NCBI RefSeq assembly: GCF_010731875.1
Contig: NZ_AP022595.1
Span: forward strand, 3,286,001 to 3,350,000
Origin: Mycolicibacterium sarraceniae
GTDB lineage: Bacteria; Actinomycetota; Actinomycetes; Mycobacteriales; Mycobacteriaceae
Reading direction: 5' to 3'
DNA: 64,000 nt
Part shown: in pieces, positions 1,458 to 17,144 of the stretch
Position numbering within the stretch: the stretch's first letter is position 1
Layout of the letters: every line of letters begins with the position of its first letter
Position numbers and translations under genes: made by a program
The notes under the pieces: model-generated
The model's input: only the letters and a program-made list of their open reading frames with translations
What the model was told of the DNA's origin: nothing
The model's database searches: none

Positions 1458-1463
1458 GTCGGG

Positions 1464-2153: not shown

Positions 2154-2229
2154 AAGGCACCCTTCGTCGGTCCCGAGTCTACTTGGCTAGCTGCGGAAAT
2201 GGTTGTGCAACACCATCGGGGGAAGCAGC

Positions 2230-2256
2230 GTGCCCGCCGGCATCGCCGACGGGCAC
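2230..2256 (-). terminator. hairpin downstream of sigB
   Basis: On the minus strand the arms GTGCCCG and CGGGCAC continue through a wobble pair into CGGC/GCCG, leaving a three-base loop, about 12 pairs in total. It starts 18 bp after the sigB stop and lies before ideR. There is no T tract, which is common for mycobacterial terminators. It may attenuate rather than stop readthrough into ideR. Confidence 0.6.
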
Positions 2257-2274
2257 ACTTAGGGGGTTGCTTGT

Positions 2275-3234
2275 TTAGCTGGCGTAGGACCGCAGCCGGT
2301 CAGCCCGGTCACCGTTGCGCAACTTGGACATCACTTCGCGCTCGATCTGGCGGACCCGTTCGCGAGACAGGCCGAACAGCTTGCCGATCTGATCGAGAGT
2401 GCGTGGCTGGCCGTCATCGAGACCGAACCGCAGCCGGATCACTTGCTGCTCACGCTCATCGAGCGTGGCGAGCACGTGGCGAATATCGGTGTGGAGCAGC
2501 TCGGCGATGACGGCGTTCTCGGCCGACATGGCTTCGGAGTCTTCGATGAAGTCGCCCAGCGGAGCCTCCTCGTCGCTGCCGACCGGCATATCCAGGCTCA
2601 CCGGGTCGCGGCTGTGCTCGAGCAGGTCGTTGATCTTCTCGACCGGGATGCCCGACTCTTCGGCCAGTTCGTCGTCGGTGGCCTCGCGCCCCAGGCTCTG
2701 GTGCATCTCACGCTTGATCCGCGCCAGCTTGTTGACCTGTTCCACCAGGTGCACTGGCAGCCGGATGGTGCGGCTCTGGTCGGCCATACCGCGGGTGATT
2801 GCCTGACGGATCCACCAGGTGGCGTAGGTGGAGAACTTGAAACCCTTGGTGTAATCGAACTTTTCCATCGCCCGGATCAGGCCCAGGTTGCCCTCCTGGA
2901 TGAGATCCAGCAGTGGCATACCGCGTCCGGTGTAGCGCTTGGCCAACGACACCACCAGGCGCAGGTTGGCCTCGAGCAGGTGGCTTCGGGCGGCCTGCCC
3001 ATCGCGAACCACGGTGGCCAGGTCACGTTTGCGGTTGTCGGATAGGCGCTTGCGGGTCGCCAGCAGATGCGCGGCGAACAAGCCCGCTTCGATGCGCTTG
3101 GCCAGCTCGACCTCGTCCTCGGCGGTGAGTAGAGCGGTCTTGCCGATCCCGTTCAGATACACGCGCACCAGGTCCGCGGCCGGACTCTGGGCGTCCAGGT
3201 CGCTGTCAAATCGGCTAGTGGTGGCATTTGCCAT
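2275..3234 (-). CDS. sigB: RNA polymerase sigma factor SigB
   Basis: A 319-residue group 2 sigma-70 factor, the stress and stationary-phase relative of SigA. Region 2 is seen in [20 protein letters not shown] and the [16 protein letters not shown] segment. Region 4 has [15 protein letters not shown] and the SRERVRQIE helix-turn-helix near the C-terminus. It lacks the long N-terminal extension of SigA. The ATG at 3232-3234 (MANATTSRF) is chosen because AGGAGG lies a few bases upstream and the length matches M. tuberculosis SigB (323 residues). An in-frame start at 3300 would translate through the promoter. An extracytoplasmic-sigma-type promoter is visible upstream. Confidence 0.96.
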
Positions 3235-3271
3235 GGTGGCCTCCTGATCGGCTGCAACTGTCAAACGGTTC

Positions 3272-3297
3272 AACGTTCGATCGGAGCAAAGAGTTCC
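3272..3297 (-). promoter_or_regulatory. candidate SigE/SigH-type promoter of sigB
   Basis: On the minus strand GGAACT (3297-3292) and CGTT (3275-3272) are separated by 16 bases, close to the GGAAC/GTT pattern of mycobacterial SigE and SigH promoters. It lies about 40 bp ahead of the sigB ATG. M. tuberculosis sigB is known to be transcribed by ECF sigma factors, so position and sequence agree. Confidence 0.6.
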
Positions 3298-3381
3298 CAC
3301 GAGGTCGCTATCTCACACCCTCTGAAGTGCAGGAATGCTGCGAGGCCCTGAGAATGTCCTGAGAAACAACGCCCTTGACGG

Positions 3382-3777
3382 TCAGTGGGAACTGTGGTTG
3401 CCGCCGCCGGCGGTATGCGGTTGCGCCGCGGAGATACCGGGATTGAGAGCAGGAGGTTCGGGGCGCGGGAACAGCTGAGTCCGGCGCAGGGTGTCATTGA
3501 ACCGGCGCGGTTCCTCGGCCTTGCGCGGCGGCCGGTCGTTGGCGATCAGCACCGCGATCCACGGCAGCGGCACCGACCCCGCGATGATCGCCAGCGAGAT
3601 CAGCCCGTTGTGCCACAACCCGTAGGCCGCCGCAGCCAGAATGAGCGCCGGGATCCGAAATGACATGATCGTCAAGTACTTTCGCACCCGCGCACGATGC
3701 TGCTCCTCATAGGGAGTCGCGGCCGCGGTGATGAGCACGGGCCGACCTTCGTCGTCGAACCCCAGCTCACGCTTCAT
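3382..3777 (-). CDS. DUF3099 family membrane protein
   Basis: A 131-residue protein starting MKRELGFDDEGRP at 3777. The N-terminal part has LITAAATPYEEQHRARVRKY. Two hydrophobic segments follow, FRIPALILAAAAYGLW and LISLAIIAGSVPLPWIAVLIA, at about 42-85, then a proline-rich cytoplasmic tail. The fold of two helices after a short head is that of DUF3099, and the position matches Rv2709. Function is unknown. Confidence 0.75.
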   Translation of the reverse strand: MKRELGFDDEGRPVLITAAATPYEEQHRARVRKYLTIMSFRIPALILAAAAYGLWHNGLISLAIIAGSVPLPWIAVLIANDRPPRKAEEPRRFNDTLRRTQLFPRPEPPALNPGISAAQPHTAGGGNHSSH

Positions 3778-3845
3778 AGCTCCACTGTTCCACATTCCGT
3801 GCTCGATATGCAGGGTAGTTTCTTACAGCCGCTCAACCGGGCACA

Positions 3846-4094
3846 ATGTCTTCCATGCGGACCCAGACGATCGAGCGCCCCGACTCCGACGAACGCGTCG
3901 ACGACGGCACCGATGATGACGCGCCTAAGGTCTTTCACTACGTGAAGAAGGACAAGATCGCCGAGAGCGCTGTGATGGGCACCCACGTCGTCGCGCTGTG
4001 CGGTGAGGTGTTCCCGGTGACAAAAGCGGCCAAGCCGGGCTCGCCGGTCTGCCCCGATTGCAAGCGCGTCTACGAAGGCCTCAAGAAGGGCTGA
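3846..4094 (+). CDS. DUF3039 domain-containing protein
   Basis: An 82-residue acidic-to-basic protein with FHYVKKDKIAESAVMGTHVV and a C-terminal CPDCKRVYE. The CxxC plus an upstream cysteine (VALCGE) could bind a metal. The sequence is typical of actinobacterial DUF3039, at the position of Rv2708c. The ATG at 3846 or 3855 could start it; neither has a strong ribosome binding site. Its end overlaps the convergent BrkB-like gene by 14 bp. Function is unknown. Confidence 0.8.
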   Translation: MSSMRTQTIERPDSDERVDDGTDDDAPKVFHYVKKDKIAESAVMGTHVVALCGEVFPVTKAAKPGSPVCPDCKRVYEGLKKG

Positions 4095-5076
4095 CCGGGG
4101 CCTTCTCGTCGGGCTGTTCGGACCGCGGCGCCTGGTTGCGGTGTTCGGCATCCTTGTCGCCCAACGACTTCGCCTTGTGCCGCAACCACCTGCGCACCTG
4201 ATCGGCGTGCGGGGTCGGGGCCGGCCACTCCTCCTCGATGGCGGCATTGAGCTCAGCGCCGATCATGATTGCGAAGCCGAGGAAGAATGCGAACAGCAGG
4301 AACGCGATCGGTGTCGCCAACGCCCCGTACGTGTAACCGGTGCTGGTGATCCAGGTCAGGTAGAAGCGCAGGACCATGGTGGCGACCACGAACACCGTCG
4401 CCGCCAGTAGCGCGCCCCACACCAGGCGATGTGTGGGCAGCGGGCTGGGCAGCGACACCCGGTAGAGGATGGTCACCGCCACGATCAACGCCAGCGTAAG
4501 CATTGGGTAGTAGCCGTATTGCAGGACGTTGTCCCAGCTGTCAGGCAGGTAAGACGAGATCTTGCGCGGACCGACCGCGATGAATGGCGCTGCCGCGATG
4601 ACGGACACCAGCATCACCACATAGAGGCCCAACGCGAAGATACGCTGCCGCACCGGATGGCGCAGCGGTGTCTGGTCATGGGCTTCCACCACCGAGTCGA
4701 CGAACGCCGAGATGGCTGACGAACCGGCCCACAGGCTGATCACGAAGCCCAACGAGACCACCTCGCCGCGCGCGCCCTGGACGATGTCGTGGACGGTCGG
4801 CTCGATGATCTCGTTGACCACGTTCTTGGAGAAGAAGCTGTCGGCGAATTTGATCAGCTGGCTCTGGATCGTGGGCAGGGTGTCTGGCCCAAACAACGGC
4901 GCGATGTAGGCGAGGCTGCCCAGCATCCCGAGCAGCAATGGGGGCAGCGACAGCACCGACCAGAATCCAGCCTGGGCCGACTCCGCGAAGATCGAGTCGT
5001 CCCAGCTCTTGGACAATGTCCGTTTGGAGATCCGCCATATGTGATGGCGAGATGGCTTAGCGGGTTGGTCGGTCAT
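4081..5076 (-). CDS. YihY/BrkB family inner membrane protein
   Basis: A 331-residue polytopic membrane protein starting MTDQPAKPSRHHI at 5076. About six membrane segments are visible, including SVLSLPPLLLGMLGSLAYI near the start and IAFLLFAFFLGFAIMIGAELNAAIE near the end. The GAELNA(A/E) stretch is the family signature of YihY/BrkB (UPF0761). A charged tail with many Asp, Glu and Pro follows. It corresponds to Rv2707 by synteny. The biochemical role is not established. Confidence 0.85.
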   Translation of the reverse strand: MTDQPAKPSRHHIWRISKRTLSKSWDDSIFAESAQAGFWSVLSLPPLLLGMLGSLAYIAPLFGPDTLPTIQSQLIKFADSFFSKNVVNEIIEPTVHDIVQGARGEVVSLGFVISLWAGSSAISAFVDSVVEAHDQTPLRHPVRQRIFALGLYVVMLVSVIAAAPFIAVGPRKISSYLPDSWDNVLQYGYYPMLTLALIVAVTILYRVSLPSPLPTHRLVWGALLAATVFVVATMVLRFYLTWITSTGYTYGALATPIAFLLFAFFLGFAIMIGAELNAAIEEEWPAPTPHADQVRRWLRHKAKSLGDKDAEHRNQAPRSEQPDEKAPVSPS

Positions 5077-5136
5077 GACCAGACCAGCATTCCTGACGAC
5101 AGCGATCCTGCCCAGCACCGCGGCCGTGAGTTGCGG

Positions 5137-5328
5137 TTATGCCTCCGACGTCGCGACTTCGATCACCGCGGCCAGTTCGACAAGCTTGGCCTGGTGCTCG
5201 TTGGCGTGATGCTGGCAGAACAGGAGTTCGGCGCCAGAGGGGAGCTTCGCGCGGACCCGAGCAGCCGCACCACAGCGGTCGCAGCGATCAGCCTTGGTCA
5301 ATTCCGGACTGGTCAGGGTCGCGTTCAT
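5137..5328 (-). CDS. small Cys/His zinc-ribbon-like protein (DUF7455 type)
   Basis: A 63-residue protein, MNATLTSPELTKADRCDRCG onward. CDRCG near residue 16 and FCQHHANEH near residue 39 give a C-x2-C plus C-x-HH set that probably binds zinc. It resembles small actinobacterial proteins now called DUF7455. It is preceded by GGAGGAGCC in the minus direction. It lies between the BrkB-like gene and the DUF952 gene. Function is unknown. Confidence 0.65.
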   Translation of the reverse strand: MNATLTSPELTKADRCDRCGAAARVRAKLPSGAELLFCQHHANEHQAKLVELAAVIEVATSEA

Positions 5329-5489
5329 TTGGGCTCCTCCGTAAGGTGCTCAGCGCTTCGGTGGCTTGGCGTCATCGTCACGTATGTCCACTGTCTCAGA
5401 CGTTCTTCGTTTCGGCCTTGTTCCCCGGGGGTTTAACGCTGTGTCGTGTCTCACGCCCTGTGCTGTTGCGGGTGGTGCAGTGTGTTCGT

Positions 5490-5855
5490 ATGTACCCGAA
5501 TCCGGAATTCTTACTCCACCTGTGCGGACAGCGGGACTGGGAAGCCGCCCAAGCCGTCGGCCGGCTTTGCCCCGAGTCACTGACCGAAGTCGGGTTCGTC
5601 CACCTGTCGACACGCGAGCAGGTACACCTGCCCGCTAACCGGCTCTATGCCGATCGAACTGATGTGCTGCTGCTGCATATCGACCCGCAAAGACTGGACG
5701 CGCCCGTGCGGTGGGAACCCGGAGCGTCAACGGATCCCGAGTCGATGCGGTTCCCGCATCTGTACGGCGCGTTGCCCACCGCGGCCGTGACGAACGTCAC
5801 GCGCTACCGTACGGGGCCCGACGGCACGTTTCCGGCGTTCGAGTCCGCGACGTAG
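5490..5855 (+). CDS. DUF952 domain-containing protein
   Basis: A 121-residue protein starting MYPNPEFLLHLCGQRDWEAA at the ATG at 5490. The EVGFVHLSTREQV and DVLLLHID segments are typical of DUF952, a small beta-rich family with remote likeness to glutathione S-transferase-like folds and no proven function. It is convergent with the RidA-like gene, and the two share 52 bp at their 3' ends. The position matches Rv2705c. Confidence 0.75.
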   Translation: MYPNPEFLLHLCGQRDWEAAQAVGRLCPESLTEVGFVHLSTREQVHLPANRLYADRTDVLLLHIDPQRLDAPVRWEPGASTDPESMRFPHLYGALPTAAVTNVTRYRTGPDGTFPAFESAT

Positions 5856-6211
5856 GCGTCGGCCTCGATCTCCACCAGCAGCCCGGGTTCGACGAGGGCC
5901 GAGACTTCCACCATGGTGGCAGCCGGCCGGACCGCACCGAAGAACTCCTCGTGCACGACGCCGACCTCCCGCCACCGGGAGATGTCGGTGACGTAGATCC
6001 GGGTGCGGATCACATCCGGCAGGCCGGCGCCCAGATCGGATAGCGCTGTCTGGATGCGCTGCAACGCATTTCGGGTCTGATCGGCGATGTCCTTGCCGGC
6101 ACCGGTCGTGCCCGCGACGGCCACGAACGGGCCCGTGCGCACCGCACGGGAGTACCCGACCAATTCCTCGAATTCGGAGCCCGATCCGATGTTCACCCGC
6201 TGTGACGACAT
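5804..6211 (-). CDS. RidA family protein (enamine/imine deaminase-like)
   Basis: A 135-residue protein with YSRAVRTGPFVAVAGTTG and a C-terminal RPAATMVEVSALVEPGLLVEIEADAYV. This is the trimeric RidA/YjgF fold, whose members hydrolyse reactive enamines from PLP enzymes. The arginine preceding PAATMVEV is the usual carboxylate-binding residue. Its ATG (6209-6211) lies six bases from the original TAG stop of sigA at 6218-6220, with no ribosome binding site, which suggests it was coupled to sigA before the mobile element separated them. It is Rv2704 by synteny. Confidence 0.85.
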   Translation of the reverse strand: MSSQRVNIGSGSEFEELVGYSRAVRTGPFVAVAGTTGAGKDIADQTRNALQRIQTALSDLGAGLPDVIRTRIYVTDISRWREVGVVHEEFFGAVRPAATMVEVSALVEPGLLVEIEADAYVADSNAGNVPSGPVR

Positions 6212-6219
6212 GCCGGGCT

Positions 6220-6237
6220 AGTCCAGGTAGTCGCGCA
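6220..6237. other. attachment core at the left end of the element
   Basis: AGTCCAGGTAGTCGCGCA is identical to 15466-15483. Read on the minus strand it encodes the last sigA codons (RDYLD) and here runs into TAG, the presumed original sigA stop. The next chromosomal gene, ridA, begins six bases beyond. Confidence 0.92.
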
Positions 6238-6259
6238 CTAGGGGCGACTTTGCGCTGTA

Positions 6260-6282
6260 CCTGACCTGTATAAATGCTGTTC
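6260..6282. repeat. arm-type inverted repeat, left
   Basis: CCTGACCTG followed by a variable AT-rich centre and GCTGTTC. It matches the reverse complement of 15421-15443 at 18 of 23 positions. Both copies lie exactly 22 bp inside their attachment core, so they are symmetric integrase or excisionase binding-site candidates. A GAATATCTTGGACTGAC segment at 6304-6320 also has a relative at 15375-15387. Confidence 0.6.
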
Positions 6283-6354
6283 GGCTCAGAGCGTGGAGAG
6301 CCTGAATATCTTGGACTGACTGCATTCCCTGGCCAATAGCAAGGGAGCGTACCA

Positions 6355-6972
6355 ATGACCACCAAGTACCCCGTCGACTCAACTGCCCACACCTGCTGCC
6401 GCGGCATCGGCCGGCACGCACGCGACTGCACTACGCCCTCCGAGGTTGTCGGTGCGCGGTGCGACGGTGAGCCTCCCCAACAGGAAGGCGGCACCATGAC
6501 CGCACTGACCACACCCGACAACGCGACCACCTGGCGCGACTTCGCCGAACAGCTGCCGCCCCACGTGATCCAGCGTTTCGAGCGACACGAACTGTTGACC
6601 GAGCTTCACGGACCCCTCGCATTCCCCGGAGAAGACCCCACAGAGGTCATCCGCAAGGACCGGCAAATGCTGTTCGAGGAGGCGAGGAATCAGGTGTCGT
6701 TCGCCCACGTGGCGCTGCCAGCAGCGGCAACCGGGTGTGCCGACCTGTGGAATGACGACGGTGACGGCAACTGGTCGCGAGTCGTCGATGGCCGCAGTCG
6801 TTCGACCGGTCCGCTGTCGGTCAGCATTGGCGGCGTGCAGTCCGCAGATGGATCGGTCCGCTGGTGGGTCACCGCATATGCGAAGGACGACGAAGTCACA
6901 CCAGAGCAGATCCGCGAGTATGCGGTGATGTTGACCGACACCGCAGACGAGTTTGAGCGACTGACCACCTGA
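6355..6972 (+). CDS. element-borne protein of unknown function, two possible starts
   Basis: A 205-residue protein, the only gene of the element on the plus strand, next to attL. The ATG at 6355 follows AAGGGAG by seven bases. A second in-frame ATG at 6496 follows GGAAGG and would give 158 residues. The extra leader contains HTCCRGIGRHARDC, a Cys/His cluster that could bind metal. The C-terminal part, with WWVTAYAKDDEVTPEQIREYAV, looks like a small alpha/beta domain. I do not recognise the family. A perfect 36-nt palindrome follows as a terminator. Cargo genes of such islands often sit at this place, so a defence or immunity role is possible but unproven. Confidence 0.6.
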   Translation: MTTKYPVDSTAHTCCRGIGRHARDCTTPSEVVGARCDGEPPQQEGGTMTALTTPDNATTWRDFAEQLPPHVIQRFERHELLTELHGPLAFPGEDPTEVIRKDRQMLFEEARNQVSFAHVALPAAATGCADLWNDDGDGNWSRVVDGRSRSTGPLSVSIGGVQSADGSVRWWVTAYAKDDEVTPEQIREYAVMLTDTADEFERLTT

Positions 6973-6987
6973 CACGGCGCAGACATC

Positions 6988-7023
6988 GAACAGCCACCGA
7001 AGCAATTGCTTCGGTGGCTGTTC
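6988..7023 (+). terminator. perfect 36-nt palindrome
   Basis: Arms of 18 bases (GAACAGCCACCGAAGCAA and its complement) meet with no unpaired spacer. It lies 16 bp after the stop of the plus-strand gene and 3 bp from the end of the small minus-strand frame, so it could terminate from both sides. Confidence 0.7.
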
Positions 7024-7025
7024 TG

Positions 7026-7166
7026 TTAGTCGGTGACCAGCGTCAGTTGGAAGCCCGGTTTCTCCGTGATAGTCCAGGTGCCCCCACCTCGGTCAGTCAT
7101 TACCACTTCCCGCGCGATCGCCCGGTAACTCTCGCCCGCGAAGAACAGCCACAGCACTCCGATCAT
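7026..7166 (-). CDS. possible small protein (46 aa)
   Basis: A frame starting MIGVLWLFFAGESYRA at the ATG at 7166; an ATG at 7214 in the same frame would give 62 residues. It ends beside the palindrome at 6988-7023. The composition looks coding, but there is no good ribosome binding site and I recognise no family. It may be the remnant of a longer element gene. Confidence 0.3.
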   Translation of the reverse strand: MIGVLWLFFAGESYRAIAREVVMTDRGGGTWTITEKPGFQLTLVTD

Positions 7167-7305
7167 CGCGCGCAAGCCGTTCCGCTGTCCGCACCCGTCG
7201 CGCCCCCTTCCCATGTCCAGTTTCGTTCGGGGGGAGAGGACCCCTAACCGGTGGAAGGTGGCACCGGTGTCGGGCCTTAGCGATCTGGACCCCTACTCCC
7301 CGGGT

Positions 7306-7366
7306 GGGTGCGGCGGGTGGCGCGCTGGAGGGGAACCACCCCGTGTTGAGCCTGCCCGCCGCACCC
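7306..7366 (-). terminator. long-loop inverted repeat after the second capsid
   Basis: GGGTGCGGCGGG (7306-7317) is the exact complement of CCCGCCGCACCC (7355-7366). It begins six bases past the stop of the second capsid frame, so it is a likely terminator of the head-gene operon. Confidence 0.5.
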
Positions 7367-7371
7367 GGTCC

Positions 7372-8579
7372 TTATGCTGCGGTGGCGACCTTGACGACGG
7401 CACCGGGCTGGTTGACCGAGACTCCGAACCGGCCTTCCACGCGGCAGCGCAAGCTGTTCGACGTGAAGTCGGTGCCGACGTTCTCAGACCAGCGGGTGTC
7501 GAGCTCGCCGTCGTGGTCGATCGTCACCGAGCCCTCACCGAGCACCAGCCCGGTCTTGGCGCCGAGGCCCTGATTCAGGACCACCGGCACGCCCCAGAGT
7601 CGTCGGGCGGTGGGGTCGATCGGCGCGCCCTGCACGTCGGTGGCTCCACTGGTCACCGCGAGGAGTTCGATGGCCTCCCAGTCGCCGGCGCTGAGGACGA
7701 TTGCCGCCGGTGCGTAGTCCGACACCGACAGTGCGGTCAGTGCTTTGCGGATGCTGGTGAGTGCGTTGGTGGCGAACGCCTGCGTGACGACGCCGCTGGT
7801 GTTCAGGATGCCGGTGAAGTGCTCACCAGTGCCATCGCCCGAGATAACCTCTGTCTCAACGGCTTTGCGCAGACCGTAGAGCATCTCGTCGGAAACGAAC
7901 TTTTCGAGGTTCGGTGCGTCGCTGAGCATGTAGTGGTCGAGTTGCTCGGACACGTGGGCGACGACCCGCAGGCGGTTCTCCACCGAGGTGATGCCCAGGA
8001 CGGTCGTCGGCTTCGTGCCAGCGACCGCGACGGGGGCCGCGTTGTTGGTGCGCGTCGACTGCCGTATGAACGTGTAGCTCGGCGGCACGATGCGCGCGGG
8101 CAGCACGTCTAGCAGCGAGACCACCGGCCGAGCTCGACGATCTCGGGCAGCACGATCGTGCTGGTGGTCTGCTGGCCCGAGGCCAGTGCCTTGGTTCGGG
8201 TGCCGTTCACGGTGCCGTCACTGACGGCCTGGCGCGGCCATGCCTTGACCATCTTCGCGGCCAGTGTCTTGGTGTGCTTGCCGTTGAGGGGCCAGGTGCC
8301 CATCGCCCGCGGCGGCCGGGTCCGCACCATCAACGAGCGGCTTGCCGATGTCGCCAGCGAGCGACTTCGCGCCGTCGAGGATGGCCAGATCGGGCCTTGG
8401 CGGTAATGATCTGCGAGTCGAGCGACTTCGCCTCGTTGGTGGCTTCGTCGACCCTGCCGGACTCGTCGGCGGTCAGGTCCCGTCCGAGTTCGTCGGCGGT
8501 GTCGATGATCTGCTTAAACGAGCGCCAGTTGGCTGTCGCGGTCCTTCGTTAGGGTTTGCAGTTTCGCGGTGGTCATCAT
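7372..8579 (-). pseudogene. HK97 family major capsid protein, second copy, frameshifted
   Basis: The start is at 8579 (MMTTAKLQTLTKDRDSQLAL) behind AGGAG. The reading then has to change frame near 8515 (QIIDTADELGRDLTADE), near 8395 (DLAILDGAKSLAGDIGKPL), near 8310, and near 8110-8124 to continue into a 250-residue C-terminal frame with SLLDVLPARIVPPSYTFIRQ and GRFGVSVNQPGAVVKV. The last part is the HK97 capsid fold and is related to, but clearly divergent from, the intact capsid at 9613-10719. With at least four frame breaks it cannot make a full protein. The truncated 7372-8124 frame could still be translated. Confidence 0.85.
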
Positions 8580-9136
8580 GTCGGGTGTCTCCTGGAGGTA
8601 ACGGGTGGCGTTGGCCTTGGCCAGCGCCGAGCGGATAGGGGCGGTGGGTCGGCCGGCGGACTTGACGGCGCCGATCAGAGCCCGGTCGTTGGCGCCGCGA
8701 GCGACCACCGAGATCTCGATCAGGTCGAGTTCGGTCAGCTCGTTGCCGGCCGCGGTCTTGGTTGAATTGCGGATGCCGTAGCCGATCGACAGGCCGCCGA
8801 CGCGGCGGCCCTTGACGTTTCGGTAGGCGGCGGCACCGTGATCGGTGTCGAGGTCGAACTTCCCGGTGATCGCTAATCCTTCGGCGGTTTCGGCCGCCGC
8901 GATCACGTCACCGACGTAGTTGCGCGGGTCGTCGGCCTTGTGCTCCCACAACAGTGGGATCGGTTGGCCGGCGGCAATCGATTTCGTGAATGCGCCGGGG
9001 CGAACGATGTCGCCGTGCGCGTCGACGTTGTCGAACACTGATGCCAGACCGTTGTCCGAGAGGACGTCCCATGAAACGCAAGTCTGTTGCGTTGTCGATC
9101 AAGACCGCTGACGATGCCACCGGCACCTTCACCGCC
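8580..9136 (-). pseudogene. HK97 prohead protease split by a local inversion
   Basis: The body reads on the minus strand from 9047 (LASVFDNVDAHGDIVRPGAF) through LIEISVVARGANDRALIGAVK, the fold of the U35 prohead protease that trims HK97 scaffolds. The expected N-terminus is missing from this strand. It lies on the plus strand at 9071-9136 as MKRKSVALSIKTADDATGTF plus two residues, with its own GAGAGGAC. Flipping 9048-9136 restores a continuous gene about 50 bp after the preceding 49-residue frame. At the other end the frame has no stop before the capsid start and runs on to 8514. Confidence 0.8.
9048..9136. other. 89-bp inverted segment inside the protease gene
   Basis: This segment carries the protease ribosome binding site, start codon and 22 codons in the orientation opposite to the rest of the gene. 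No inverted repeat of more than a few bases is visible at the two junctions, so the breakpoints are placed by reading-frame continuity and could move a few bases. Confidence 0.7.
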
Positions 9137-9155
9137 GCACCGAGACAGAACCGGA

Positions 9156-9305
9156 TCACCGTGGCGGCCTGTCGTGCCACACCTGCTCGGACCATTGCGA
9201 GGCAGTGTCCTCCGGCACCTGCCGCCATCCGTACCGCGTCGGCACCAAAACTGTGGGCACCGACGACTCGTCATCATCGGCATCTGTTTCGTCGGGTTGA
9301 CTCAT
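9156..9305 (-). CDS. small element protein (49 aa)
   Basis: Starts MSQPDETDADDDESS at 9305. The ATG overlaps the TGA of the upstream 48-residue frame (ATGA), a normal sign of translational coupling. The N-terminal third is very acidic and the rest has two tryptophan-containing stretches (YGWRQ, QWSEQVW). It lies between the intact capsid and the protease. No family is recognised; a head-assembly accessory or decoration role is only a guess. Confidence 0.5.
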   Translation of the reverse strand: MSQPDETDADDDESSVPTVLVPTRYGWRQVPEDTASQWSEQVWHDRPPR

Positions 9306-9448
9306 TCGGCTACAGCGGCGTCGAGTCGAGTTCGTTCGAGTTGCCGCAACGCGGCTTCGGTGCCGACGAGCTCGACGAAGCCCTGCGCGAGTGTGGCCGC
9401 GCAGCGTTGGTGGGTCGGGGTGATCGTGATGTCAAGCTCGGCGCTCAA
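9302..9448 (-). CDS. small element protein (48 aa), TTG start
   Basis: Starts at the TTG at 9448, preceded by GGAAGGACAACGGCA, and reads SAELDITITPTHQRCAATLA onward. It ends in ATGA overlap with the next frame. The C-terminal half is an alpha helix rich in Ala, Leu and Arg. No family is recognised. The TTG overlaps the end of a tiny frame upstream, and the 165 bp between it and the capsid gene contain no other gene I can support. Confidence 0.45.
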   Translation of the reverse strand: MSAELDITITPTHQRCAATLAQGFVELVGTEAALRQLERTRLDAAVAE

Positions 9449-9612
9449 TGCCGTTGTCCTTCCGGGTTGTTGGGTAACCCCCCCATGTCGCGGGGTTGTG
9501 CAGAAAAATGCAAGCCCACCGTGGCGGGGGGCCGCCGACGGACCTCCTGTGGCGGCAACCCCCTTACCTGTGCTGGGAGCTGCCGTGCTGGCCCCGAGTG
9601 CCACGGTGAGCG

Positions 9613-10719
9613 TCAGTCGTCGACGAGCGTTGCTTTTACGACACCCATCGGTGTGAAGACCGATGTGCCGAAGCGGCCTTCCATTCGCGCTCTGACCAGG
9701 TTCTTGCTGAAGTCGTCGGCGTTGCTGGTCTCTGTCCATTGCACGAGCACGCCGAGGCTGTCGGTGTCGACGGCGACGGCGCCGGTGCTGATGACGTCTG
9801 CGGTGCCGGCGGCTTGAACGTTGGCGACGACGATCGGGACACCGAAGAGGCGGCGGGCCACGGGATCGTAAGGCAGGCCCCGGTACTCGACGGCTGTGGT
9901 CGTGGTCAGTGCGAGCTCGATGGATTCCCAGTCGTTCGGGTGCACGACGGCCGCCGCGGGCTTGTATCCGAATGTCTCCAGTTTGGTGATCGACTTACGC
10001 AGTGTGGCGAGTGCGCTGGTGTCGAATGCCTGGGTCTGAAGTCCTGATGTGGCGTGGATGTCGGCCAGTACCTTGGCCTCGACAGCAAGGCCGATTCCGT
10101 ATGCGAGCTCCTCTTGCATGAAGGGTCGCAGCGATGCGGCGTCCTCGAACCAGTACCGGTGCACGGGCTCCGACATGTGGGCGATGACGCTCAGCGCGCC
10201 GTCGATCTTGTCGATGGTGTACGTCGATGTCGGCTTGACAGCGCCCGGAGCGACGACCGCGGCGTTGTTGGTGCGCACCGTCTGACGGATGTACGAGTAG
10301 GCCGGCTGGCTGTGGCGGATGGCCGGCAGTAGGTCGAGCAGCGAGGTGGCCGGCCGACCCATCGGGATTGGCGTCGGCGTCAGCTCCACATCGACGAACA
10401 CCGACGAGTTGGCGGCGAGCGACTTCTGGCCGATCGGCATCAGCTTGTCGACGGCCTTGGTGCCGAACGACTTGCCGAAGCTGAGGAACTCGGCATTACC
10501 GTCGATGTTCCGACCACCGGCCATGGCGTCGAGCGCGGCCAGCGTCGCCGCGGACTTCTCGGCCTCTGCGATGATGCCCCTCAGTTCCTCGATGCGCGCC
10601 ATCTTGGCGTCGATGTCGGTCTGCTCTTCGGGCGTGAAGTTGCGGTTCTCGTTCTTGGCCTTGGTCGCGATGGCCAGAGCCGCCTTCTTCAGCGACTCGA
10701 GTTCTTCCTTGGGGTTCAT
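9613..10719 (-). CDS. HK97 family major capsid protein, intact copy
   Basis: A 368-residue phage capsid protein. Residues 1-70 (MNPKEELESLKKAALAIATK onward) form the charged coiled-coil scaffold or delta domain that the prohead protease removes. The HK97 fold follows, with SLLDLLPAIRHSQPAYSYIRQ, RTNNAA and the C-terminal RMEGRFGTSVFTPMGVVKATL. The ATG at 10717-10719 has AGGAGG ten bases upstream. It is the best preserved structural gene of the element. An independent capsid without terminase or tail genes is the hallmark of capsid-forming satellites. Confidence 0.92.
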   Translation of the reverse strand: MNPKEELESLKKAALAIATKAKNENRNFTPEEQTDIDAKMARIEELRGIIAEAEKSAATLAALDAMAGGRNIDGNAEFLSFGKSFGTKAVDKLMPIGQKSLAANSSVFVDVELTPTPIPMGRPATSLLDLLPAIRHSQPAYSYIRQTVRTNNAAVVAPGAVKPTSTYTIDKIDGALSVIAHMSEPVHRYWFEDAASLRPFMQEELAYGIGLAVEAKVLADIHATSGLQTQAFDTSALATLRKSITKLETFGYKPAAAVVHPNDWESIELALTTTTAVEYRGLPYDPVARRLFGVPIVVANVQAAGTADVISTGAVAVDTDSLGVLVQWTETSNADDFSKNLVRARMEGRFGTSVFTPMGVVKATLVDD

Positions 10720-11010
10720 GGTTGAGCGCCTCCTAGACGCGAAATCCGCGCGCCGAATGCGCGCACTGAAGTGGATTCGCTTGGAGGACGGACGGATTCG
10801 GCGTGGTCCCTTGTACGAGGGACGGTTCCTTACCGCTGGTCAGGCCAAGTCTTATCCCCGCGGTTCGGAGATGGCGGCGGCTCGACCGTATGTGGTCGCT
10901 GCGAGACCTGGCTGTACGGGCCAGTCTCGGCGACGGGTTTGGTCGAAACCACCACCATCCCTCCGAAAGGGACGATTCCGACCATAGCGCGCCGCGGCGA
11001 CAAGTTGCCA
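10720..11010 (-). other. 291-bp leader without a convincing gene
   Basis: The minus-strand frame at 10733-11014 lacks a ribosome binding site and has poor coding character. The segment holds two look-alike stem-loops: GTCCCT/AGGGAC around 10805-10822 and TCCCT/AGGGA around 10969-10983. It probably carries the capsid promoter and a structured leader, or sites for a regulator. Confidence 0.4.
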
Positions 11011-11277
11011 TCACGACGGCTTGCCCGGCGTGTCAGTGTCCTGCATGAGCTCGTGCGCGATCCACGACGCGGCGTAGCCGTGGGGATCTTTGAGCTTGCG
11101 TCGCATGAACGCGGCGAACATGTCGATGAGCGCCAGGAACAGCCGGTCGATTTCCTCCGGTGTTCTGGCCTCGTCGATGACGAATCGCAGCGTCGTCCCG
11201 TCGTTGTGGAGCATCGCCATGACGGCGCGCATCGCGCGGGCGCGGTCTTTGTTCGTGGGGATTCTCGGGTCAGGCAT
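11011..11277 (-). CDS. element protein of unknown function (88 aa)
   Basis: Starts MPDPRIPTNKDRARAM at the ATG at 11277, chosen because AAAGGAGATCTG directly precedes it. An ATG at 11304 overlapping the stop of the WhiB-like gene would add nine residues. The protein is helical, with TPEEIDRLFLALIDMFAAFM in the middle. No family is recognised. It is coupled to the regulator gene upstream and precedes the capsid leader, so it could be a packaging or redirecting accessory, which is inference. Confidence 0.6.
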   Translation of the reverse strand: MPDPRIPTNKDRARAMRAVMAMLHNDGTTLRFVIDEARTPEEIDRLFLALIDMFAAFMRRKLKDPHGYAASWIAHELMQDTDTPGKPS

Positions 11278-11300
11278 CAGATCTCCTTTGGGTGGGGTTG

Positions 11301-12017
11301 TCATCGGTGGCCGGTGAGTGCTCGGAGCACTGTCGTCTTGGAGCACCCGGTCACGGCCGCGATCTCGGAGTTGGTGAGGCCGGCCGCGTGCAGCTCGGCG
11401 ATGCGCTTGTCGCGCTCTGCTTTCTCGCGTTGGAATCCGCTCGTGGTCTTGTCTTCTGCCACGATCTGGCCGGCGACGACACCGATGGGTCGCTGGTCGG
11501 GCGGCAGGTTGTCGAACCAAGCACGGCAGGCTTCCCTGGCTGGGCAGGCGCGGCAGAGTGCGAGCGCGGCTGTGCTGGCCGCTTGGTCCTTCGCGGCCGT
11601 GCGGTCGAAAAGGTCGACCTGGTCGCGACAGCGGGCGCCAGGCAACGGCGGGCACGCGGCAGCCAAGCCGGCCAGGAACTCGGGCAGCGATACCCGAGCG
11701 GTCAGGGCCGGCTCGGCTTCAGTGGCGGCGGGCCGCGGCCGAGCGGTACCGGGCGAGCGGGCCTTGAGGAATTTCTTGTAGTGGGCGCAGCACATACCGC
11801 GCGCATAGGGCGCCTTGCCGCATCCGTCGATGCTGCACGTCGTGCAGCTCACTTCCACCGCCCGGACTTCGGAAGGGTCGCGTTTGAAACGCAACCCAGG
11901 CCGGCGGCGCACCGGCCGTGCGTCCTCGTCCGCGGGGTGTCTCTTAAGAGACACACCCCCCGCGGAAACGTTGGAGACGCTGCGACGCATACGGTTCCGC
12001 AACGTTTCCGTGCCCAT
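11301..12017 (-). CDS. WhiB-like Fe-S regulator with N-terminal zinc cluster and C-terminal HTH
   Basis: A 238-residue protein. Cys58, Cys61, Cys66, Cys76, Cys77 and His79 form a probable zinc cluster (CSIDGCGKAPYARGMCCAHY). Residues 130-164 give C-x24-C-x2-C-x5-C with CRACPAREAC, the WhiB iron-sulfur signature, followed by a GVVAG turn like the GVWGG of WhiB. Residues 205-235 (IAELHAAGLTNSEIAAVTG) form a resolvase-type helix-turn-helix. The first 50 residues are basic and overlap palindromic DNA, so the true start may be later. Phage WhiB proteins are known from mycobacteriophage TM4. It probably controls the element. Confidence 0.75.
   Translation of the reverse strand: MGTETLRNRMRRSVSNVSAGGVSLKRHPADEDARPVRRRPGLRFKRDPSEVRAVEVSCTTCSIDGCGKAPYARGMCCAHYKKFLKARSPGTARPRPAATEAEPALTARVSLPEFLAGLAAACPPLPGARCRDQVDLFDRTAAKDQAASTAALALCRACPAREACRAWFDNLPPDQRPIGVVAGQIVAEDKTTSGFQREKAERDKRIAELHAAGLTNSEIAAVTGCSKTTVLRALTGHR
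11937..11954. repeat. 18-bp palindrome in the regulator 5' region
   Basis: GTGTCTCTTAAGAGACAC is a perfect palindrome, flanked by a G run on the left and a C run on the right that extend pairing with a two-base bulge. A second interrupted palindrome, GGGT-GCGTTT-AAACGC-ACCC, lies at 11875-11897. Both fall beside the GGAAACG array and could be operators. Confidence 0.5.
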
Positions 12018-12254
12018 CCACGGAAACGCCTGACCAGGCTTTTTACGGGCCAGCGTGAAAAGCCGGTGTCTGACATCACGGAAACGTCCGTTCCGACGTT
12101 TCCGCGCCGATCGACGGAAACGTTGACCTGGCCTTTTGCGTTCGCCCGAACCATCGTCAGAACATCCCTTCTGACGTTTCCGCGCCCACTCCCGGAAACG
12201 TTGGAACGGACTTTCGTGTGCGCACAGCTTCGGCGATCGTGGCGTTCGGAAACG
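11964..12254. repeat. array of nine GGAAACG/CGTTTCC repeats, candidate origin or operator
   Basis: Copies start at 11964(+), 12003(-), 12022(+), 12080(+), 12097(-), 12116(+), 12175(-), 12194(+) and 12248(+). Three pairs (12003/12022, 12097/12116, 12175/12194) have inverted orientation with exactly 12 bases between the seven-base cores, and share ACGTTTCCG(C/T)GCC in the left half. The array covers the end of the RepA-like ATPase gene, the gap after it, and the start of the regulator frame. Iterons beside a replication gene are typical origins, but a WhiB or HTH operator is the main alternative. Confidence 0.7.
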
Positions 12255-13251
12255 TGTGGCCCGCCAGGCGAAGTGCCTCCCGTGCCTTGCGGTTGCCCGC
12301 CTCGACGGGCAATCGAAGTTGGATCATCGCGTCGATACACGCGCCGATCCGGCGGCGTTCAGCGTCCGGCAGCGACTTCGGCCGGATGATGTGCCGCAGG
12401 TGCGGGTCGTACTGGCGGAGCACCAGAATGCGGTCAGGGTGGGCGTTGCCGCGCTGTCGTTCGAGGCCGAGGTTGACGAACACTTCTCCGTCTTCGCCGC
12501 CGGGTTGGGTGTCGAGCGTCCACACCGCGTCCACATCATCGGATTTGGCGCTTGATCCGCGGGCAGTGGTCTTGGTGCCGTGGCCGCGGTGGTCGAGCCG
12601 CACGACGGCGCGGCCAGCGGCTTTCAGTGGGGCCAGTGTGTGCCGGTACAGCGCCCGGTAGGTGTCGGCGCTGTTCTCTTCGCCAGCGACGACACGGGCC
12701 ACGGTGTCGATGACGACCAGGGCGGCGCCGTGGTGCTCAGCAACCGCCGCGAGGTCGAGTCCCCCGACTGGGCCGTCGAGGGGCGGCATCGACGGGAACG
12801 ACAGATAGCGCAGGTTACTCAGATCAGCTGGGCCGTAACCCATGTCGCGTAGCCGCTCGATAATGTCGAAGTCGGTGTTCTCGTGATCGACGTAGAGGAC
12901 TCGGACTGGTGGCTGTGGCTTCTGGCCGAAGGCCGGGCGGCCCGCCGCGATCGCGGCGGCGACGTCGAGCATCAGCAGGCTCTTGCCGGCCTTCGCCGTC
13001 GACACCAGGGCGTAGGACTGGCCGCGAGCGATGAAGTCGGTTACCAGCCAATCGATTTCATCGCGGGCGCCGTCGAATGCTCGCTGCCAGTCAACGACCG
13101 GGTATCGCTTGTGCGCCGACGTCGCGGCCGCCGACACGATCGCGGAACCGTTGCCGTCGTCGGGTGGCGGTTCGGGTGGGCCGGGATCGAAGTCGACGAC
13201 CGCGGCCATGCGCCGCGCAGAGGCGAGGCCGGGGTCAACGCGGGCGGTCAC
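12157..13251 (-). CDS. RepA-like AAA family ATPase
   Basis: A 364-residue RecA-fold ATPase (AAA_25/RepA type). Walker A is STAKAGKSLL at 84-93 and Walker B is ALVVIDT at 177-183. RLDHRGHG and RGSSAKSDDVD at about 218-241 are typical of hexameric plasmid RepA and phage helicase-like proteins. A short helical C-terminal domain may bind DNA. Proteins of this class drive replication of small prophage-like elements. Its start overlaps the upstream gene by four bases, and the repeat array begins inside its 3' end. Confidence 0.85.
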   Translation of the reverse strand: MTARVDPGLASARRMAAVVDFDPGPPEPPPDDGNGSAIVSAAATSAHKRYPVVDWQRAFDGARDEIDWLVTDFIARGQSYALVSTAKAGKSLLMLDVAAAIAAGRPAFGQKPQPPVRVLYVDHENTDFDIIERLRDMGYGPADLSNLRYLSFPSMPPLDGPVGGLDLAAVAEHHGAALVVIDTVARVVAGEENSADTYRALYRHTLAPLKAAGRAVVRLDHRGHGTKTTARGSSAKSDDVDAVWTLDTQPGGEDGEVFVNLGLERQRGNAHPDRILVLRQYDPHLRHIIRPKSLPDAERRRIGACIDAMIQLRLPVEAGNRKAREALRLAGHTFPNATIAEAVRTRKSVPTFPGVGAETSEGMF

Positions 13252-13604
13252 GCGAGCGCACCGCCCGACAGTTGGTGCAACAGTTCGGCAAGTTCGCGAT
13301 CCTTACCCCCGCGTCTCCAAAGTGATTGCAGCACTTCAGCTTCAAGTAAGGGAATCCGTCCGGATTCCAGGACATGCAGCGCAGCATCCCGACCGCCGTC
13401 GATCGTCTTGTCCGACAGGGGCGGTTCGGTGCAGGTGCAGGGCCAAGGATCGGGGCACCCGCAGTCGAGCGGCACCAGGCGGCAAGAGGTGTCGTGGCGG
13501 CGTTTCCAGGCTGCGACGCCGCTATGCTGTGGGGTATCCGCTGCCGTGGATTCTGATGAAGCCGCCTCGCTGCCCGTGGGGCGGCTTCCTCGTTCGTATG
13601 TCAC
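13248..13604 (-). CDS. element protein with a Cys-rich centre (118 aa)
   Basis: Starts MTYERGSRPTGSEAA at 13604, overlapping the previous stop as ATGA. The centre reads CRLVPLDCGCPDPWPCTC, five cysteines that could bind zinc. The C-terminal half (DGGRDAALHVLESGRIPLLE) is a helical module often seen in actinobacterial phage and prophage proteins just before a RepA-like gene. I do not know its function. It is clearly part of the same operon as its neighbours on both sides. Confidence 0.65.
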   Translation of the reverse strand: MTYERGSRPTGSEAASSESTAADTPQHSGVAAWKRRHDTSCRLVPLDCGCPDPWPCTCTEPPLSDKTIDGGRDAALHVLESGRIPLLEAEVLQSLWRRGGKDRELAELLHQLSGGALA

Positions 13605-13861
13605 GCGGCACCGCCCTTGCGGTTGCGGCGAGCCTGGGCGGACTTGAGCGCGAGCCGCTTGAAATAGGCCTTACGCGCGTGCTCGGCTCTGGTGGCGCGT
13701 TCGGCGGGGGTGAGCGTGCCATGGGGGTCGACTTGCCGTTCAAACTTGTCGAGCAGAGCTTTTCGTGCGGGTGCGGTTCGCGCGGAACGGTTTTCGGTTT
13801 TTGCCCAAGATTCGTGAGCGGCGATCTGCGCGCGCAGAGACCGTTCGTGGGTATCTGGCAT
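13601..13861 (-). CDS. conserved actinophage-type small basic protein (86 aa)
   Basis: Starts MPDTHERSLRAQIAAHESWA at 13861 behind CCGGAGG. The protein is very rich in Arg, Lys and Ala, with RTAPARKALLDKFERQVDP and RAEHARKAYFKRLALKSAQA. I recognise this pattern as a widespread small protein of mycobacterial and streptomycete prophages, without a known function. It is the first gene of the early operon that continues into the Cys-rich protein and the ATPase. Confidence 0.7.
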   Translation of the reverse strand: MPDTHERSLRAQIAAHESWAKTENRSARTAPARKALLDKFERQVDPHGTLTPAERATRAEHARKAYFKRLALKSAQARRNRKGGAA

Positions 13862-13938
13862 GAAAATGCCTCCGGCTTTCAGGCGTGATTGACCACACCT
13901 TCTTCGGAGGCTCCGGCCGGAGGGACATCCGGCTCGCT

Positions 13939-13970
13939 AGCTGCATAGCGTACACCAACGCTATGCAGCT
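13939..13970. repeat. 13-bp perfect inverted repeat between the int and early operons
   Basis: AGCTGCATAGCGT and its complement flank a six-base spacer (ACACCA). It lies in the 113-bp gap after the int-linked gene and before the early operon start. A second palindrome, CTCCGGCCGGAG, is at 13911-13922. Either terminator or operator is possible; with no T tract, an operator for an excision or repressor protein is as likely. Confidence 0.55.
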
Positions 13971-13974
13971 GAAC

Positions 13975-14466
13975 TCACAACAGCCTGTCGAGCTCCCGCA
14001 GGCCGTTCAGCGAAATTCTCGTAATGTCTTGTTCCCAAAGATGATTCAGGTGTTCGCGGAGCTTGGGCTCCGCGCGTCGAACCGTGTCGGAACAGAGCGG
14101 ACAGCGCAGCTGGTATCGCCGACCGAGCGGAAGAAAAGCCTCAGCATCCATTCCGGCCATCTTTCGGGCGCGGTCGACCTCGGCGATAATTCGAGCCATC
14201 CCTGCGCGATCATTGATGCCGCGGCCGGAATCCCAGAACCGGACCACCTGGCCGGCCGCGTCGATGAACTCGATACCTCCGCCGCGGCGCGTGGTCCTGA
14301 TATGGTCCTCGCCGATTGACTCGAAGGGGTCAGGCATCCACGGTCCGTCGCCGCGCCGTGACAACACCAGCTCCCACAGCTGGTGCGACTGCGCATCGCA
14401 GAACACGGTGATCTCGCCAGTTTTCTCGTCCTGCATGCCCTCGAACGGGCCGACGCCGCCGCTCAC
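13975..14466 (-). CDS. int-coupled element protein with C-terminal zinc-finger-like motif
   Basis: A 163-residue protein whose ATG overlaps the integrase stop by four bases. The first 100 residues look like a beta-rich domain (IEFIDAAGQVVRFWDSG). The C-terminus has CPLCSDTVRRAEPKLREHLN, a C-x2-C plus H motif followed by HL, resembling a zinc finger. It could be a DNA-binding partner of the integrase, such as a recombination directionality factor, but that is inference. No family is recognised. Confidence 0.65.
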   Translation of the reverse strand: MSGGVGPFEGMQDEKTGEITVFCDAQSHQLWELVLSRRGDGPWMPDPFESIGEDHIRTTRRGGGIEFIDAAGQVVRFWDSGRGINDRAGMARIIAEVDRARKMAGMDAEAFLPLGRRYQLRCPLCSDTVRRAEPKLREHLNHLWEQDITRISLNGLRELDRLL

Positions 14467-15371
14467 AGGTCTCCCAACCCGAGCCCGCGTGCCTCGGCCG
14501 CAGCGCGGTCGGATGCAGTCGACCGTGTGTAGCGGTCGATCATGTCGCGGGTCGACCAGCCGGCTACTGCCATCAGGCCGCCCTCAGATCCGCCGGCGGC
14601 CAGCCAGCGCGATGCCGCCGTGTGGCGCAGTAGGTGCGGATGGAAGTTTTTCAGCCCGGCCAGCTCGGCACGGTATTTCAGCGACTTGTGCAGGCCGTCG
14701 TAGTTGAATCCCTTGCCGCGGTCACCGAGCCACAGCGGCGCGGTATCGGCGAGCAGGTGGCTGCGGCGCATCCGGACGTAGCGGTCGATCGCGACCCCGG
14801 TCTGCGGGCCGAACGGCGCCACCCGGCCCTTACCGCCCTTGCCGCGGCGCACGGTGACTAGCCCACGGGTCAGGTCGACGTCATCGACGGTGAGCCCGAC
14901 GACTTCACCGGCGCGCATCCCTGTCTCTGTCATCAGTCGCACGATCGCATCGTCGCGGCGGTCCCGGAACTCCTTGCCGCCGCATGCCTTGATCAGCCTG
15001 CGTAGCTCGTCTTCGGACAGCGATTCGGTCACCTTGGCGTCGAGCTTGGGCGCCTTGAGTCCGAGCAGTGGATCCTCGGCGATCTCGCCTTCCTCCTCGA
15101 GCCACGCCGAGAACCGGCGCATGCCCAACTGGCGCGAGCGGGCAGTGGCCGCCTCGGCACCGGCGTCGAGGAGATCGGCCACGAACGCCTTCATCAGTTC
15201 GCGGTCCAGCGCAGGGGAGTGGTCGTGCTCGGTGCACCACCTTAGGAACGCCCGGACCGCGTCGCCGTAGACCTTGACCGTGGCCGGTGACTTGCGTTCA
15301 GAACGCAGCGCAAGCTCCCAGGAGGGCAGCAGGACGGCAAGATCGAGGGGTGCAGAAACACGGCGCGCCAT
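14463..15371 (-). CDS. int: tyrosine recombinase / integrase
   Basis: A 302-residue site-specific recombinase. The N-terminal SAM-like core-binding domain is at about 10-100. Catalytic residues are visible as Arg153 (TGMRAGEVVGL), a lysine in the beta hairpin (RRGKGGKGRVAP), His246-Leu-Leu-Arg249, Trp272 in the usual His position, and Tyr281 (DRYTR). The ATG is 95 bp from the attachment core in sigA, the usual place for an integrase. It would mediate recombination between the 18-bp core repeats. Confidence 0.95.
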   Translation of the reverse strand: MARRVSAPLDLAVLLPSWELALRSERKSPATVKVYGDAVRAFLRWCTEHDHSPALDRELMKAFVADLLDAGAEAATARSRQLGMRRFSAWLEEEGEIAEDPLLGLKAPKLDAKVTESLSEDELRRLIKACGGKEFRDRRDDAIVRLMTETGMRAGEVVGLTVDDVDLTRGLVTVRRGKGGKGRVAPFGPQTGVAIDRYVRMRRSHLLADTAPLWLGDRGKGFNYDGLHKSLKYRAELAGLKNFHPHLLRHTAASRWLAAGGSEGGLMAVAGWSTRDMIDRYTRSTASDRAAAEARGLGLGDL

Positions 15372-15420
15372 GCCGAATATCTTGACTTAGAGCGCTGTGC
15401 GTGTCTACTATTTCTGGACT

Positions 15421-15443
15421 GACCAGCAAACATGCAGGTCAGG
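15421..15443. repeat. arm-type inverted repeat, right
   Basis: Reverse-complement partner of 6260-6282 at the same 22-bp distance from the core. It lies between the integrase start and attachment core and may bind the integrase arm domain or overlap the int promoter. Confidence 0.6.
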
Positions 15444-15463
15444 ACCGTTAACCGGAGTGTCGC

Positions 15464-16969
<1,506 letters not shown>

Positions 16970-17144
16970 GTACACCCTTTCGGTCGTGCTGGCTCGCGGT
17001 GGGCGCGGGGCTCCACCGAAAGCGTCGGCTATGAGGACTGTTGGCGTGGATCTCGGTTGCGGATTCTCGCCGCTATCCGGTAGGCGGCCGCCGTCGACCA
17101 TTGTAACGACAGTTGAGAGCCGCTACCGCGCCGAGCGGCGAAAA

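Follow-up and report, generated by a model that had tools for sequence, protein, structure and literature searches.

Small prophage-like elements are known in mycobacteria, such as phiRv1 and phiRv2 of Mycobacterium tuberculosis, of 9.3 and 10.8 kb, the former with a serine integrase and the latter with a tyrosine integrase and tRNA-Val listed as its site (accessible text of PMC3986857). Both have been placed with elements resembling phage-inducible chromosomal islands (PICIs) in a study that presents mycobacterial regions with an integrase and a major capsid gene as candidate PICIs; these are small, some have helicase genes, and the sites given in the accessible text are tRNA genes or serine-integrase sites (PMC10654092). 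Capsid-forming PICIs (cf-PICIs) have their own major capsid protein and protease and, as defined in PMC10690885, genes for portal, connectors and the two terminase subunits as well. Head genes are also found in MulchRoom and MiniFlayer, actinobacterial satellites of Streptomyces phages, which have capsid, scaffold, connector and portal genes along with those of both terminases (PMC10690885). Here we describe a 9.25-kb element integrated at the 3' end of sigA in Mycolicibacterium sarraceniae, within a stretch of 64,000 nucleotides (contig NZ_AP022595.1, positions 3,286,001 to 3,350,000) that is called the window below and to which coordinates refer unless a locus (L) or genome (G) number is given. 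It is ordinary in kind, a probable capsid-carrying phage satellite; what is new, as far as searched, is the docking site at sigA and the breadth of the integrase clade that uses it.

A preliminary description of this DNA had reported a perfect 18-bp repeat bounding ~9.26 kb at the 3' end of sigA, and a search of the window for AGTCCAGGTAGTCGCGCA returned two copies without mismatch, at 6220-6237 and 15466-15483, which bound 9,246 bp. When up to three mismatches were allowed there were three matches, against a mean of 0.05 in shuffled sequences, none of 100 of which reached three; the third core-like sequence (44933-44950, three mismatches) lies far from the element and is perhaps due to chance. 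On the minus strand the core reads TGCGCGACTACCTGGACT and is the final 18 nt of sigA (15464-17101). The core on the side of the integrase gene (int) continues into GA, so that sigA ends in TGA, and the distal core continues into AG, which gives TAG, the would-be chromosomal stop of sigA. The element has thus exchanged the stop from TAG to TGA and left the SigA protein sequence unaltered, since attP, the attachment site of the circular form, supplies the same codons and a stop. As the two junctions read, the stop codon and the 3' flank of sigA are now element-derived. The site comprises:

5804-6211, minus strand: RidA/L-PSP family gene (PF01042) of the chromosomal flank, which adjoins sigA when the site is empty
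6220-6237, minus strand: distal attachment core, then the chromosome's own TAG
6238-6330, plus strand: distal attachment arm; its sequence is conserved across 17 elements
15372-15465, minus strand: int-side arm of the attachment site; a dyad lies at 25 nt from the core, and a conserved box precedes int
15466-15483, minus strand: int-side attachment core, 18 bp
15464-17101, minus strand: complete sigA gene, with the core as its final 18 nt and a TGA stop completed by the element

The arms were compared among the 17 sigA elements in which both cores could be seen, and the outer flank among the 16 with enough sequence. Mean pairwise identity was 0.510 in the 90 bp inside the distal core versus 0.286 in the 90 bp outside it, which are not conserved, and 0.273 in random 90-mers from the same elements (standard deviation 0.006, maximum of 500 draws 0.293); kinship of the elements may raise the identity of the arms, and the outer flank and random stretches have the same kinship. 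A motif like TGACCTGCA, one mismatch being allowed, recurs at a distance of exactly 25 nt to the core, in 13 of the 17 elements on the int side and in six on the distal side, against a background of ~0.11 per 140 bp. Right before int there is also a conserved box similar to GCACAGCGCT...GTCAAGATAT (15372-15400); many of the 78 loci introduced below have it in the corresponding position, and it could be an arm site of the integrase or the -10 element of a leaderless int transcript.

Empty sites were sought by joining the two flanks into a 655-base query, which gave some match in all 61 genomes searched. In G035, bases 1-618 of the query align in one piece at 78% identity, and in G023 bases 2-655 align at 74% identity with ~45 extra bases; in both genomes a RidA-type gene lies directly behind sigA. 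The mark of the distal junction, TAG plus core, was present in 18 of 392 genomes of the genus and the reversed pattern in none of the 392. A sigA element is carried by 16 of these 18 genomes, 15 found via the integrase plus G100, which is the genome of locus L026 (141 exact 60-mers of the G100 stretch are found in L026). In G058 two sigA cores lie 822 bp apart (L178, 11699-12538), apparently the scar of a nearly erased element. G256 shows a TAG-core junction (L179, 12160-12177), and its sole integrase match is on another contig, not at sigA. Because the distal arm is conserved, relatives with an empty site exist and the TAG of sigA has been replaced by TGA, the edges of the element are real attachment sites. 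An integrase beside identical cores, conserved attP arms and an empty site in relatives together mark it as a site-specific integrated element.

The use of this site extends well beyond the window. Integrase relatives were found at 45 loci in a scan of one genome per species, and a search within the genus, with E 1e-60 as the threshold, found them in 58 of 396 genomes. We examined 78 bacterial loci, the window included, made up of 22 of the 45 per-species loci and 56 more; the remaining 23 were distant or fragmentary and were not taken further, tblastn having shown sigA in none of them. The preliminary description had proposed looking for the same repeat next to sigA in other genomes, and the 3' end of sigA does stand directly before int in 29 of the 78 loci: 26 were recognised by filter, and L119, L017 and L026 (the last with a broken integrase), where tblastn missed sigA, were added by reading or from the hit list. 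L015 has the core before int, with sigA not in view. Within the genus, 20 of 396 genomes carry a sigA-site integrase (19 from the integrase search and G100, where it is broken), and the hosts of the named loci are Mycobacteriaceae, Nocardia, Dietzia, Nocardioides and Streptomyces. In a tree of 76 integrases, from which L092, L094, L114 and L127 were left out as short or broken and where the broken integrase of L026 has a very long branch, the sigA label requires four changes (mean of shuffled labels 23.3; none of 500 as low). All 29 sigA rows of the tree (28 bacterial and the phage Kromp, described below) fall in one set of 33 together with L015 and the exceptions L098, L122 and L125, with modest support (86/89), and the window integrase belongs to this clade, within a starred set of five sigA rows (99/92). 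Sister integrases sit at other host genes: ten loci at a riboflavin synthase gene by motif (L080, L082, L086, L091, L093, L126, L130, L132, L134 and L135; PF00677 was confirmed in the two tested), L133 at an Nramp transporter gene, L122 at that of cytochrome oxidase subunit IV and L085 at a NusB-family gene.

Streptomyces phage Kromp (MH744420) is an isolated phage of 58,268 bp with terminases, portal, capsid/head, tail and lysis genes. Its integrase is 63.5% identical over 92% of the query, and the core GTGCGCGACTATCTCGACTGA, with arms, lies 98 bp before its int and outside sigA, as an attP would. Kromp thus shares with the element the integrase type and a sigA-type core with arms before int, and differs from it in being a complete 58-kb phage; it would be expected to integrate in hrdB. 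No paper naming it was among the literature matches listed. Scanning IMG/VR for the TAG-core pattern returned eight contigs, 13.9-78.6 kb long, in which the core lies outside sigA; two of these (L169 and L170) are near-identical around it. An integrase of the clade is near the core in six of the eight, within ~155 bp in five and at ~0.77 kb in L167; in L166 the available stretch ends right behind the core. The portal family PF04860 was over its cut-off in three contigs and the large terminase subunit (TerL, phrog_9) was matched in three, the eight records being without completeness estimate and possibly fragments or prophage pieces. Judging by these attP-like cores, complete actinobacterial phages appear to use the sigA site too. 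A 9.55-kb viral contig with an integrase of the clade (L151) was considered as an excised circle and rejected, as its ends do not overlap.

With regard to previous knowledge of the site, sigA is not named as such in the accessible text of PMC8092301 and PMC9934374, and none of the attB sequences given in the available part of PMC3986857 for phiRv1, phiRv2 and the other small elements listed equals the sigA core. The main text of PMC10654092, whose supplementary data may list some of the loci, contains none of the words sigA, sigma and rpoD. No title or abstract was found on sigA, hrdB, rpoD or the principal sigma factor as an attachment site, a search whose scope did not extend to subscription papers, preprints and supplements. 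The earlier remark that this is a non-standard site is in line with its absence from the mycobacterial prophage papers searched; the site is nevertheless used by a large integrase clade, and the matching attP-like core is found in a complete phage, Kromp, so it is confined neither to this strain nor to satellites.

Between the attachment sites the element holds the following genes:

14463-15371, minus strand: tyrosine integrase of the sigA-site clade (Pfam E 1.7e-26)
13975-14466, minus strand: open reading frame (ORF) of 163 residues, with a homologue in one other of 25 sigA loci (L007)
13601-13861, minus strand: 86-residue hallmark protein of the integrase family (phrog_2842), predicted to form three helices
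13248-13604, minus strand: ORF of 118 residues
12157-13251, minus strand: AAA_25 (RepA-like) ATPase, probable replication protein (E 2.7e-24)
11301-12017, minus strand: WhiB-like protein with a C-terminal helix-turn-helix; weak family matches, start codon uncertain
11011-11301, minus strand: small ORF before the capsid gene
9613-10719, minus strand: HK97 major capsid protein 1, intact, 368 residues (E 1.3e-13)
8514-9038, minus strand: prohead protease without its full N-terminus, from a broken protease-capsid gene (E 9.4e-19)
7372-8124, minus strand: second capsid, C-terminal piece of the broken protease-capsid gene (E 2.4e-23)
6355-6972, plus strand: ORF of 205 residues, cargo, with relatives in five other loci

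Pfam and PHROG matches agree with the integrase, RepA-like ATPase, WhiB-like regulator and HK97 head genes reported earlier between the repeats, the WhiB assignment being weak (19.5 bits in Pfam, under the cut-off of 23.6; PHROG WhiB 1.5e-6). A WhiB-like gene is present in 11 of 26 sigA loci versus seven of 45 others (Fisher 0.022), but as this was one of nine genes tested it is only a lead and not a mark of sigA elements. Of the 71 loci whose sequence extends over 4 kb past int, 60 contain the 86-residue gene (21 of 26 at sigA, 39 of 45 elsewhere); its protein model has three helices with a mean predicted local distance difference test score (pLDDT) of 93. Capsid protein 1, encoded by the only full-length open capsid gene (9613-10719), has relatives of HK97 gp5 in PDB at 2e-20. 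Among 50,697 phage records it gave 352 matches, all below 60% identity and the best-covering at ~32%, and a scan of viral contigs yielded relatives at 24-29% only; relatives at 60-72% identity are predicted proteins in mycobacterial and metagenomic contigs. The protease and the second capsid piece match one fused protease-capsid gene of relatives, in different frames and with stops between them; in L007 this fused gene is intact, and L006 is similar.

As stated in the preliminary description, the unit holds no recognisable portal, large terminase or tail gene. Neither terminase nor portal had a PHROGs match in 20 translations of its ORFs, some overlapping, and the sole match to a tail gene was a weak one to tape measure (E 0.076) in the N-terminal 43 residues of capsid protein 1. 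In 13 genomes searched, TerL (phrog_9) was never inside the sigA element and was elsewhere in three; PF04860 proved too narrow for portals, missing the phrog_104 portal of a second element in the same genome and the annotated portal of Kromp, and phrog_104 was therefore added, which was inside the sigA element in none of the 13 genomes and elsewhere in one. By these searches the unit is not a complete prophage with terminase, portal, tail and lysis genes. The proposed likeness to phiRv1 and phiRv2 holds for size and kind of genes, as a likeness by description and not by protein comparison; the sites differ, and the integrase of phiRv1 is a serine enzyme. That to cf-PICIs was not borne out. These bring a major capsid protein and a protease, and the element has one intact capsid gene, its protease and the other capsid gene being broken (in L006 and L007 the protease is intact and fused to the capsid); no portal, connector or terminase subunit was found in it, and without portal and terminase it falls outside the cf-PICIs as defined. 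MulchRoom and MiniFlayer differ from it in the same way.

The size of the elements bears on what the capsid gene may do. The 12 capsid-bearing sigA elements with both cores located measure 8.93, 9.08, 9.25, 9.29, 9.36, 9.45, 9.51, 9.93, 10.00, 10.05, 12.74 and 14.69 kb, and the nine without capsid match 0.82, 3.98, 4.85, 4.93, 7.03, 10.11 (with protease only), 14.39, 15.35 and 15.79 kb; elements cut by contig ends, such as L005, L011, L014, L022 and L023, were kept out of the counts. Capsids were called genome-wide with PF05065 and with PHROGs on selected ORFs only, so unusual capsids may be missed. Ten of the 12 capsid-bearing elements lie at 8.93-10.05 kb, and the bin of 8.9-10.2 kb, chosen after seeing the data, holds 10 of 12 capsid-bearing elements versus one of nine others (Fisher p 0.002); the spread of sizes also differs (Brown-Forsythe p 0.003). 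Two capsid families, PF05065 and phrog_1650, free or fused to the protease, occur in the 8.9-10.05-kb class. A first count of 10 capsid-bearing versus seven other sigA elements, in which not one of 20,000 permutations was equally tight, suffered from bias, since for many loci only ~11 kb behind int was in view. Searching by distal junction brought in two elements with a capsid gene, of 12.7 and 14.7 kb, as well as a 15.8-kb element with no capsid match and the 0.8-kb scar; uniform size as a strict rule was therefore dropped and the claim lowered to 10 of 12. Nothing rests on a wider test that pooled 15 elements from other sites, with exact 15-36-bp repeats as limits. The clustering may reflect the packaging constraint of a small shell.

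With 9.25 kb, phage genes and no gene set for a complete virion, the unit is by its structure a phage satellite or PICI in the broad sense, and we think it reasonably probable that it is an integrated phage satellite that makes a capsid shell of its own and relies on a helper for terminase, portal and tail. As the sequences show, its family of sigA-specific tyrosine integrases recombines a circular attP with the sigA end, at the final 18 nt of the gene; infection by a helper tailed phage, or induction, would lead to excision, the AAA ATPase of the element would replicate it, HK97 capsid protein 1 would build a small shell for ~10 kb, and portal, terminase, connectors and tail would be supplied by the helper. 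Since the protease-capsid gene is broken in the window copy, maturation would need a helper protease, or this copy is impaired. The satellite role given in the preliminary description thus finds an integrated element, genuine attachment sites, a satellite size and the absence of recognised terminase, portal and tail genes on its side, the role itself, with mobility, helper and packaging, being inferred. Several points weigh against it: excision, packaging and a helper are deduced and none was observed, no small terminase was recognised in the element, the window copy has its protease-capsid gene broken, two capsid-bearing sigA elements exceed the main size class at 12.7 and 14.7 kb, and by TerL the own genome holds no complete helper prophage (other TerL families were not searched), its sole TerL lying in another small element.

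The broken gene, the remnants of 0.8-5 kb at the sigA site and the integrase type and attP core shared with Kromp could also be accounted for by a Kromp-type phage that lost terminase, portal and tail and persists as an immobile remnant. Such decay seems unlikely, given that capsid-bearing elements fall mostly at 8.9-10.05 kb although their capsid genes differ, that attachment arms remain conserved and that the gene of capsid 1 is open, its product being distant from the phage capsids found (~32% identity for the best-covering matches) and having close relatives in mycobacterial and metagenomic contigs. P4 Sid and the SaPI factors redirect capsid assembly of the helper, and a capsid protein found without portal or terminase, and here without an intact protease, might likewise form no shell of its own but interfere with or redirect helper assembly; we judge this quite unlikely, as relatives retain a protease fused to the capsid, superfluous for a pure interference factor, and the size clustering fits an own shell. 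An integrative or mobilizable element that spreads otherwise, for example by conjugation, and gained its capsid genes by chance would suit the replication-type ATPase and the nine sized sigA elements without capsid match, but it is very improbable: no transfer gene was recognised in the scanned ORFs, PLSDB plasmids showed neither near-identical DNA nor the integrase at E 1e-20, and capsid genes are present in 12 of 21 sized sigA elements.

WhiB proteins bind the C-terminal domain of SigA. A tentative and rather doubtful extension is that the end of sigA is a contested docking site of actinobacteria, where one integrase clade serves complete phages and shell-only satellites, mostly of 9-10 kb, that swap shells between capsid lineages and depend on helper phages for portal, terminase and tail, and where the WhiB-like protein encoded by many of them acts on SigA; some helper phages would then use the sigA site and be shut out of it.

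Relatives of the element carry defence-type or accessory cargo, which counts in favour of the satellite reading. In sigA elements we noted a possible restriction enzyme adjoining a DNA methyltransferase (L012, 17156-19050), a PDC-S59 candidate as defence-like cargo (L120, 6260-7687) and a cytochrome P450-related gene (L009, 16984-17940); the 318-residue product of L009 was considered as a divergent capsid and rejected, its relatives being cytochromes P450. The 14.4-kb sigA element L119 of G063 encodes a tape measure protein of 1547 residues (3860-8503, PHROG E 8.9e-187), and that genome has no PF05065 capsid, so L119 has a tail gene without a head gene. The genome of the window holds a second small element (L116, G000:C1:4189000-4208000, at 1444-11530) with integrase, an O-like replication gene with iterons (4137-4271), TerL, portal, a weak scaffold match, capsid and a second integrase. 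It is bounded by copies of AGTTCGAATCTCACCGAGGGCAC, presumably a tRNA 3' end, 10.05 kb apart, and looks like a capsid-forming PICI. Elsewhere in this genome (L117, G000:C1:1526000-1545000, at 7167-11788) an integrase, an abortive-infection-type gene and a capsid fragment lie close together.

The last codons of sigA emerge from this work as a widely conserved attachment site in several actinobacterial families, for satellites and, by their attP-like cores, for complete phages. This gives one short pattern by which to look for such elements, the site may serve as an integration tool, and possible competition between phages and satellites for one site becomes open to study. The element itself is a candidate for a shell-only type of satellite, and makes it testable for phiRv-type elements whether a capsid gene without portal and terminase would be sufficient for a small head of their own.

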